From Chitinophagales bacterium (GTDB lineage: Bacteria; Bacteroidota; Bacteroidia; Chitinophagales; JADJOU01), in assembly GCA_030832185.1 (NCBI GenBank), contig JAURJQ010000013.1, forward strand, positions 1 to 64,000: a DNA stretch of 64,000 nucleotides, in the 5' to 3' direction. The notes below the pieces were generated by a model that made no database searches, was not told where the DNA came from, and was given only the letters and a program-made list of their open reading frames with translations. Below, one piece after another: positions 42,898 to 46,821 of the stretch; position 1 is the stretch's first letter; every line of letters starts with the position of its first letter. The translations under genes were made by a program, and so were the position numbers.

Positions 42898-42949
42898 AAA
42901 AAGTATAAAGACTATTAAAATTTTTCACTTTGAACTTTATACTTTTCAC
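42898..42949. repeat. Heptamer-built hairpin before rsmD
   Basis: AAAAGTATAAAG (42899-42910) and CTTTATACTTTT (42935-42946) are perfect 12-bp inverted repeats with a 24-base loop. The right half is made of 7-base words in register: TTTTCAC, TTTGAAC, TTTATAC, TTTTCAC (42922-42949). It ends 9 bases before the rsmD ATG. Confidence 0.75.
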
Positions 42950-42958
42950 TTGGAATAT

Positions 42959-44773: not shown

Positions 44774-45643
44774 TTATAGAATTACTCGTCCGCAGACACC
44801 TAGGGGCAATTTTTTATCCTGGCCATAGGGGATAAATTGCTCTATACAATGGGAAGCATCGGACCATAGACCAGCTTCTTTAAGAATATTTTCTAATAAA
44901 AGTGGGGTGATATTGAGTGAATATAGATTGATGATGAGAAAAGAATCTTTTTCGGATAATAGTTGCTTACATAGACTCAAGAGGTGAAATAACTCTTTTT
45001 CTAAAACCCATTTCTCGCCATTAGGACCACGACCATAGGCAGGCGGATCTAATAGAATAGCGGTATATTTTTTTCCTCGCGTGATTTCTCGCTTTAAATA
45101 CTTGATGGCATCTTCTACCACCCAGGAAATGTTCGGGTCCATCTTCGAGAGTTCTCTATTTTCATTGGCCCAGTTGACCACTTGCTTTACAGCATCTATA
45201 TGGGTTACTTTGAGTCCAGCAATGCTACCTACTAAGCTAGCTATTCCTGTATAAGCAAATAGATTGAGCATGCCACCTGAAAGCTTTTGCGCGATAGTTT
45301 GTTTATAAATAAACTGCCAATTATCGTACTGTTCTGGAAATATACCTACATGTTTAAATGCGGTCAGAGCCAGTTTGACTTTGATTTCTTTATCTCTAAA
45401 GCTATCACAGTGAATGACCCAGTTATTGGGCATCTTCGAATTCAAAATCCAATTTCCGCTATCTTCTTTATTAGTTCTTACGTCCTCTTTTTTACGCTCA
45501 TAAAAGGCATCTACTTCATTTCGCCAGTTTTCCAGTGGCCTCTCCATATCCCATAATGCCTGAGGCTCTGGGCGAGCCAATGTATACGAACCGAATCGTT
45601 CTATTTTATAAAAATCTCCACAATCTAAAAGTTGGTAGTCCAT
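44774..45643 (-). CDS. RlmI-like class I SAM-dependent methyltransferase
   Basis: A 289-residue methyltransferase of the COG1092 (RlmI/RlmK) type without the N-terminal PUA domain. SAM motif I is MLNLFAYTGIASL, followed by VTHIDAVKQVVNWANEN. The catalytic-loop motif IV is ILLDPPAYGRGPNGEKW, and the end is KLPLGVCGRVIL. Substrate is probably an rRNA base, but this is inferred. The SNase start codon lies 3 bases past its stop, and a heptamer array fills the gap to the M42 gene. Confidence 0.85.
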   Translation of the reverse strand: MDYQLLDCGDFYKIERFGSYTLARPEPQALWDMERPLENWRNEVDAFYERKKEDVRTNKEDSGNWILNSKMPNNWVIHCDSFRDKEIKVKLALTAFKHVGIFPEQYDNWQFIYKQTIAQKLSGGMLNLFAYTGIASLVGSIAGLKVTHIDAVKQVVNWANENRELSKMDPNISWVVEDAIKYLKREITRGKKYTAILLDPPAYGRGPNGEKWVLEKELFHLLSLCKQLLSEKDSFLIINLYSLNITPLLLENILKEAGLWSDASHCIEQFIPYGQDKKLPLGVCGRVIL

Positions 45644-45648
45644 TTTTC

Positions 45649-45718
45649 TTAGATATTAGATTTTAGATGTTAGATATGAGAAAAATCTAACTTCTCACAT
45701 CTAAGATCTCACATCTAT
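45649..45718. repeat. Array of ten 7-base words with inverted symmetry
   Basis: In strict 7-base register: TTAGATA, TTAGATT, TTAGATG, TTAGATA, TGAGAAA, then the reverse-complement type AATCTAA, CTTCTCA, CATCTAA, GATCTCA, CATCTAT. It fills the whole gap between two minus-strand genes and includes the M42 stop codon (45715-45717). Bases 45670-45682 pair with 45692-45704 at 12 of 13 positions with a 9-base loop. Confidence 0.85.
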
Positions 45719-46821
45719 TTAAAACTCCAGTCGAATTTATCCAAACCTTCTATACATAATGCCAATAAATCAATACTCAATTGAATATCTTCTTTATGAC
45801 AGGTCTCAATAGTTTGGTGGATATGACGTGTAGGAATAGACACCGCTCCACAGATAGCTCCATTTTTAGCCATACGCTGAATAGCTCCGGTGTCTGTGCC
45901 GCCTGCAGTGAGGATTTCCATTTGATGCTTCACTTTGTTTTTAGTGGCTATCTCTTTCATATACTCTACCATACGATAGTCACAGATAACAGAGCCATCC
46001 ATGATTTTTATGGCGGTACCATCGCCGAGTTTAGTTATTTTATCAAAATCTCTATTTCCAGGCACATCAAAGGCTATGGTAGTATCTAGGCAGATACCAA
46101 AGTCTGGATCTAAATAGTGTGCTGCCGTGGTAGCGCCTCTTAGTCCTACTTCTTCCTGAACGGTGAATACCCCATAAAAATCATAAGGTAGTTTTTTCCC
46201 TTTTAATTTTCTCAATGTCTCTATCAAAATAAAAACAGACACTCGATTATCCAAGGATTTACAATTGACACAATCTCCCATTTCCACCAAGGCACGCTCT
46301 CGTGTAATAGAGTCTCCTATAGCTATATGCTTGATAACCTCTTCTTTTTTCATACCAAGATCAATAAAATAGTCCTGAATCTGTGGTGTCTTACCTCGCT
46401 CTTCAGCTGTCATGACGTGGATAGGTTTAGATCCCATGACTCCTAGAAGTGTTTTATTTTTACCGTGAATCAAAACCCTTTGAGAAGTCAAAGTCTTAGG
46501 GTCGAATCCGCCGAGAGTATGAAAGCGAACGAATCCATCGTTATCAATATGAGTGACGATAAAGCCTATCTCATCCATATGGGCAGGCACCATTACTTTT
46601 TTACTACTATCCTTGCCTCGCTGAATTGCTAGGATATTTCCCAATGGGTCTACTGTAATTTCGTCTGCTAGGCCTTGAATTGATTTTAGGATAAGCTCTC
46701 TGATAGGCTGCTCAAAACCAGGTGCACCTGGTCGCTCGCATATACTAGCTAATAAAGGTATATTTAAATTTGAATTAGTTGGCGCCTTTTTTGCAGGAGT
46801 TTTTTTCGTTGTTTTTGCCAT
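45715..46821 (-). CDS. M42 family glutamyl aminopeptidase-like metallopeptidase
   Basis: A 368-residue cytoplasmic peptidase with two metal ions. The N-terminus is Lys/Ala/Thr-rich (MAKTTKKTPAKKAPT), then ICERPGAPGFEQPIREL. Metal ligands and catalytic residues show in VPAHMDEIGFI, SLDNRVSVFIL, FTVQEEVGLRGA (paired glutamates), CLDTTIAFD and the His near the end (IPTRHIHQTIE). Family members form large tetrahedral assemblies and trim peptides. Its stop codon lies inside the heptamer array. Confidence 0.93.
   Translation of the reverse strand: MAKTTKKTPAKKAPTNSNLNIPLLASICERPGAPGFEQPIRELILKSIQGLADEITVDPLGNILAIQRGKDSSKKVMVPAHMDEIGFIVTHIDNDGFVRFHTLGGFDPKTLTSQRVLIHGKNKTLLGVMGSKPIHVMTAEERGKTPQIQDYFIDLGMKKEEVIKHIAIGDSITRERALVEMGDCVNCKSLDNRVSVFILIETLRKLKGKKLPYDFYGVFTVQEEVGLRGATTAAHYLDPDFGICLDTTIAFDVPGNRDFDKITKLGDGTAIKIMDGSVICDYRMVEYMKEIATKNKVKHQMEILTAGGTDTGAIQRMAKNGAICGAVSIPTRHIHQTIETCHKEDIQLSIDLLALCIEGLDKFDWSFK

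Follow-up and report, generated by a model that had tools for sequence, protein, structure and literature searches.

Tandem arrays of 7-nucleotide (nt) words abut gene edges in a Chitinophagales genome, its genus, and other members of its class, and their polarity nearly always follows the edge that they touch: outward from that edge the array strand is G bearing and C poor, at a stop codon and at a start codon alike. The array at 45649-45718 of the window (the whole stretch of DNA that was analyzed, 64,000 nt of contig JAURJQ010000013.1) is an intergenic tandem 7-nt simple-sequence repeat and not a product of chance. The initial annotation of this DNA described the array, but polarity relative to gene edges, the main regularity, is absent from it.

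A heptad array between two genes and its kin

The array consists of ten heptads, five TKAGANN words followed by five words of the reverse-complement form NNTCTMA (Table 1). Its lag-7 identity was 43/63, compared with a mean of 18.8 and a maximum of 34 in 20,000 dinucleotide shuffles, and its 35-base halves, compared with each other as reverse complements, agreed at 25/35 positions (shuffles: mean, 10.5; maximum, 21); none of the 20,000 shuffles attained either score, and 7 was by a wide margin the best of the lags from 3 to 21. The ten words in register that the initial annotation had reported are therefore real, but its term "mirror symmetry" was wrong, as the array is an inverted repeat, and where it saw free variation at single positions, three word positions (2, 6, and 7) vary. 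It had also held that the array fills the gap between the two genes. This is so at one end, where the array reaches the TAG stop codon of the M42 gene (minus strand, 45715-45717), which sits within the last plus-strand word, the first word of the post-stop arm as read on the coding strand; at the other end the array stops 5 nt short of the RlmI-like start codon, from which the pre-start arm is separated by TTTTC.

Table 1. Coordinates of the array, its arms, the flanking genes, and the second heptad array in the window
Feature	Position	Strand	Description
First five words of the array	from 45649	+	TTAGATA TTAGATT TTAGATG TTAGATA TGAGAAA
Last five words of the array	from 45684	+	AATCTAA CTTCTCA CATCTAA GATCTCA CATCTAT
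Pre-start arm	45649..45683	-	Five NNTCTMA words on the coding strand; C type, G poor
Post-stop arm	45684..45718	-	Coding strand ATAGATG TGAGATC TTAGATG TGAGAAG TTAGATT; G type, C poor
Intercistronic gap, 71 nt	45644..45714	-	Between two co-directional genes
Upstream gene, M42 glutamyl aminopeptidase family	45715..46821	-	PF05343, 308.8 bits
Downstream gene, RlmI-like SAM-dependent methyltransferase	44774..45643	-	PF10672, 30.9 bits; cutoff of 27 barely exceeded
Second heptad array of the window	42922..42951	+	TTTTCAC TTTGAAC TTTATAC TTTTCAC; C type

The own genome (G000) was sampled through pattern searches plus stretches chosen blind to arrays. The mean autocorrelation over gaps genome-wide gave a signal too diluted for use. 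The check for further 7-phased gaps was positive, with many more arrays in the own genome and the genus: in the blindly chosen stretches (673,603 bp), 22 segments passed the period-7 threshold, whereas the other periods between 4 and 20 gave 0 to 6 segments each, which argues against the single chance repeat that the initial annotation had set against its own reading. No period-7 segments were found in 100 kb of E. coli. The words of the own-genome arrays varied (ACTTTNN, ACTGACC, ATTCAAN, TTTTGAN, AATAACT, and others). Three consecutive TKAGANN words were matched 11, 23, 77, and 6 times in the four genus members (G000 and its relatives G001, G002, and G003), compared with 0 to 1 matches for the reversed pattern. 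Across the class, threefold TTAGANN arrays occurred in 24 of 149 genomes and threefold ACTTTNN arrays ending in a nonword in 35 of the 149; the reversed control was frequent too in several class genomes, probably because other heptad words are abundant there.

Several G002 contigs (C19, C48, C74, and C100; L167, L156, L159, and L161, respectively) start or end in or near long TKAGANN arrays, so that the longest arrays are probably undercounted in draft genomes. In G000 (L147:5112-5131) as in G001 (L149:6000-6019), heptads of the word TGAGAGT form an array within a large open reading frame (ORF) of about 1.9 kb; the flanking sequences look similar, so that one gene, shared by the two genomes, is probably involved. 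The form in which two arms bracket a gap is clearest in G103, a genome from another family of the class, where, in at least 10 co-directional gaps, four to five TGAGATN words followed the first gene and their reverse complement preceded the second (L238 to L264, around locus positions 1400 to 1700). The centers of these gaps were unrelated and measured 19 to 87 nt; the outer word of the arms was often TTAGATN-like, and several of the inner-end words were TGAGACA.

Polarity at gene edges

The polarity rule can be restated without reference to genes: read along either strand, gaps are G type at their left end and C type at their right end, whatever the gene orientation. The TKAGANN arrays of the genus place TKAGANN after the upstream stop codon, often starting within it, and NNTCTMA before the next start codon. 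We took arrays of any word, chosen blind to sequence, and compared the sign of their GC skew with the nearest ORF edge, where edges came from our own ORF caller rather than from annotation and the cutoffs (45 nt and a skew of 0.3) were set after the first examples. In the genus set, stop edges carried 24 G-type and 3 C-type arrays and start edges 3 and 26, respectively (p = 2.6e-9); in independent class and phylum genomes, the corresponding counts were 19 and 3 at stop edges and 0 and 15 at start edges (p = 8.7e-8). Over all loci, many of them fetched by the TKAGA pattern and the related genomes among them not independent, 84 of the 93 arrays obeyed the rule (72/79 in co-directional, 8/10 in convergent, and 4/4 in divergent gaps). 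The unselected stretches alone gave 29/32 obeying arrays, and in them 34 of 49 arrays lay no more than 10 nt from an ORF edge, where 16.6 were expected. Arms with no partner in their gap obeyed as well (41/47; 26/29 at stops and 15/18 at starts). The second array of the window lies directly 5' of the gene that comes next on the plus strand, and its C type agrees with the rule.

Since G-free arrays cannot hold an ATG, the ORF caller is biased toward placing a start beside them, a bias that leaves the stop-side half of the test unaffected. No such rule was seen at the control periods 5, 6, 9, 10, 11, and 13, and period 8 also followed it (14/15 arrays). The word-independent polarity rule looks general. 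Period-8 arrays, ATCACATC and ATCATATC, lie in the pre-start regions of L055 and L154, in positions like those of heptad arrays.

In the TKAGANN arrays of G000 to G003, C was nearly absent from the free positions 2, 6, and 7 (4, 3, and 4 of 140, respectively). This scarcity far exceeds what neutral mutation should give, since transitions from T should be common. The class genome G186 does carry C at word positions 6 and 7.

Turnover, folding, and origin of the arrays

The M42/RlmI-like gene pair is kept in G000 to G003, and a two-armed heptad array is present in the orthologous gap of all three relatives, the gap measuring 71, 72, 68, and 58 nt in G000, G001, G002, and G003, respectively. The arms are made of TKAGANN and NNTCTMA in G000, G002, and G003, with differing words and word counts: the post-stop arm contains TGAGATC TTAGATG TGAGAAG TTAGATT in G000 versus TGAGAAT TTAGATT in G003, and the M42 proteins of the two are 98% identical. 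G001 carries other words in both arms (TTTAAAG TAGAAAA TGTAAAA, later CTTTNNA-type words). Another conserved gap is 106 nt long in G001, compared with 162 nt in G002, a difference of 56, or 8 x 7. The array before its start codon comprises about four words in the former genome and about twelve in the latter, and a 28-nt higher-order unit is repeated there. Copy number changes in whole units among relatives, with some other changes at the M42 gap, whose lengths differ by 13, 3, and 1 nt too and not solely by multiples of 7. Such word and block differences at orthologous gaps are the turnover that slippage or unequal recombination would give, and they support the growth by slippage that the initial annotation had suggested. 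The inversion that it had added found no support as a recent event, because the free positions of facing arms do not correspond (282.8 observed in fifteen two-armed gaps versus 285 +/- 5.7 permuted), which argues against a recent inverted duplication and against selection on those pairs.

The sense RNA of the 71-nt gap is predicted to form one hairpin (-25 kcal/mol; z, about -4.5), which has a core of 14 bp, a loop of 7 nt, and an outer stem that starts at the UAG stop codon; the initial annotation had proposed a near-perfect hairpin of 13 bases per arm. Each of the four orthologous gaps has a predicted hairpin (z, -4.4 in G000, -2.4 in G001, -2.7 in G002, and -3.3 in G003), the outer pairs of which begin at the stop codon or next to it, despite the changed word of G001. 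As a general property of the arrays, however, the hairpin was rejected: array gaps folded no better than control gaps in the own genome and in G001, and within-gap arm complementarity was not above that of permuted gaps in G000; it was above in G001 and in a mixed set, where nonarray gaps contribute to it. Most arrays lack a strong partner arm and fold in no unusual way, so the structural need that the initial annotation had considered finds no support as a general one. The array gap is not a known structured RNA in Rfam, whose covariance models gave no family above the gathering score and merely subthreshold chance matches to microRNA models.

We favor, with moderate confidence, the explanation that the array is a slippage-grown intergenic repeat attached to gene edges, the polarity of which is kept by selection on gene ends. 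Replication slippage, which would be the engine, or recombination would let an array gain, lose, and switch words in units of about 7 nt, and purifying selection on the untranslated ends of genes would keep the polarity. Such selection might act, for example, through upstream start codons, of which a leader that lacks G is necessarily free. Because both edges of the M42 gap carry the same word family, the spacer of the bicistronic mRNA can fold over its whole length, from the stop codon almost to the start codon, into a hairpin, and we suppose that hairpins are mostly a by-product of two facing arms and not the purpose of the arrays. Ordinary nonarray leaders, sampled in divergent gaps, showed almost no excess of C over G, so a filter on leader composition is weak as the sole cause; moreover, a rule that is symmetrical at starts and stops and is obeyed by single arms is not predicted by a leader-only or simple translation argument. 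Somewhat more tentatively than this, we suggest a law of layout by which the heptad arrays of Bacteroidia, and by published description those of Xanthomonas, abut gene edges with the G strand outward at starts and stops, such that some process senses the border between gene and gap, not the direction of transcription, and makes or keeps the arrays, hairpins being a consequence.

A functional intercistronic RNA hairpin, the paired arms of which would bring the stop codon beside the next start codon, thereby coupling translation or shielding the end of the upstream mRNA, is the alternative that we take most seriously, although we think it unlikely. It would fit the folding predicted from the stop codon in 4/4 orthologous gaps even though the G001 words differ in both arms, the 10 or more co-directional G103 gaps bracketed by arms around unrelated centers, and the position of 79 of the 93 scored arrays in co-directional gaps. 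What weighs against it, besides the unexceptional folding of array gaps in the own genome and G001 and the unexceptional arm complementarity in G000, is that the free positions do not covary and that about half of the scored arms are partnerless and still obey the polarity rule. Fused telomeres show head-to-head junctions of a G arm and a C arm. By analogy, strand breaks in gaps might be healed when self-templated heptads extend the 3' ends and the two ends are then joined head to head, which would account for polarity by gap side rather than by gene orientation, for the obedience of single arms, and for the frequent sharing of words between the arms of a gap; yet such outward synthesis has no candidate enzyme, words vary among the gaps of one genome, and the free positions of one arm are not copied in the other, and we regard it as improbable.

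Slightly more improbable still is a dispersed palindrome like REP/BIME elements or MITEs that enters the space between genes and then decays until single arms are left. The outer TTAGATN and inner TGAGACA words that G103 arms often share, the intergenic position, and the co-directional preference would suit such an element, but its centers should not be unrelated, nor its words so different among gaps and changed at one orthologous gap, and neither target duplications nor a shared core was seen. The initial annotation had raised a role as a terminator, and a strong hairpin is indeed predicted in the gap; an intrinsic transcription terminator, possibly bidirectional, was nevertheless rejected at 45649-45718, where neither strand has a U tract after the stem and a terminator scan of the gap gave no match, and convergent gaps show no excess of arrays, so that we consider this reading very improbable. 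We give least credence of all to a cassette of stop codons in all frames, with one stop per heptad and the frames rotated by 7 mod 3 = 1. TTAGA, TGAGA, and TAAGA each contain a stop codon and TCAGA is rare, as such a cassette would have it, but C is rare at all free positions, including those where no stop would be lost, and the post-stop arrays hold 9.8 stop triplets versus 10.4 reversed triplets per 100 bases; this avoidance of C and the reversed-triplet control largely refute the idea. The terminator, stop-codon, and chance readings of the array are disfavored.

Comparison with known heptamer repeats

Heptamer repeats have been the subject of scattered bacterial reports over decades, with no agreed role. 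According to Mrazek 2007 (as cited in PMC4679880 and PMC4692102), heptamers are the commonest class of long simple repeats in most bacterial genomes, and a link was proposed with how long a stretch of DNA the polymerase holds. The initial annotation knew of no named element like the array; intergenic heptamer repeats have in fact been published for cyanobacteria, Beggiatoaceae, and a few Bacteroidetes (PMC4679880) and for Xanthomonas and Nostoc (PMC4692102).

The GGGANTN/GGGAATC repeats of Xanthomonas are words of 7 nt in which some positions are fixed and others free, chiefly intergenic, and the GGGANTN repeats lie chiefly between co-directional ORFs and most rarely between divergent ones, with an ORF close on the 5' side of the G strand (average, 28 nt versus 160 nt), 70 to 75 convergent inverted pairs per genome, and lengths that vary widely among related species (PMC4692102). 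The arrays described here resemble them in that the G strand is directed away from the nearest ORF and in their convergent inverted pairs. In contrast, TKAGANN has no run of three or more G's and is not capable of forming G-quadruplexes, the terms in which the Xanthomonas layout was discussed (PMC4692102); Xanthomonas, one of the Gammaproteobacteria, uses one G-rich word, whereas the Bacteroidota arrays use many A/T-rich words and extend to the stop or start codon. The same geometry in A/T-rich words incapable of quadruplexes separates the geometry from quadruplex chemistry.

TAACTGA direct repeats occur in Beggiatoaceae, some cyanobacteria, and five Bacteroidetes; in a Beggiatoaceae genome they lie directly 5' of start codons, one array of Flexibacter is reversed and sits directly after a stop codon, and the same study found 7-nt indels among close strains and other heptamers in Bacteroidetes (PMC4679880). 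Ours are likewise intergenic heptamers a few nucleotides from start codons, with 7-nt indels. TAACTGA is, however, a single fixed word, present mostly as 2 to 6 perfect copies in the main genome and absent from 45649-45718, and its description states no word-independent polarity rule and does not make paired inverted arms a theme.

REP/BIME elements are intergenic palindromes that are common between co-directional genes. The array at 45649-45718 is like them in this respect but, unlike them or MITEs, is built of 7-nt words and has no conserved palindrome sequence and no defined ends. The short tandemly repeated repetitive (STRR) heptamers of heterocystous cyanobacteria (Calothrix) are tandem heptanucleotides (cited in PMC4692102). 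They comprise several words per genome and share both features with the present arrays.

Intergenic heptamers are thus already known, and what is added here is the use of many A/T-rich words, another phylum, arrays attached to the edges of genes, and a polarity that does not depend on the word. The polarity rule is simple enough to be checked in thousands of annotated genomes, and if it is true of both starts and stops, no ordinary signal for translation or termination can account for it.
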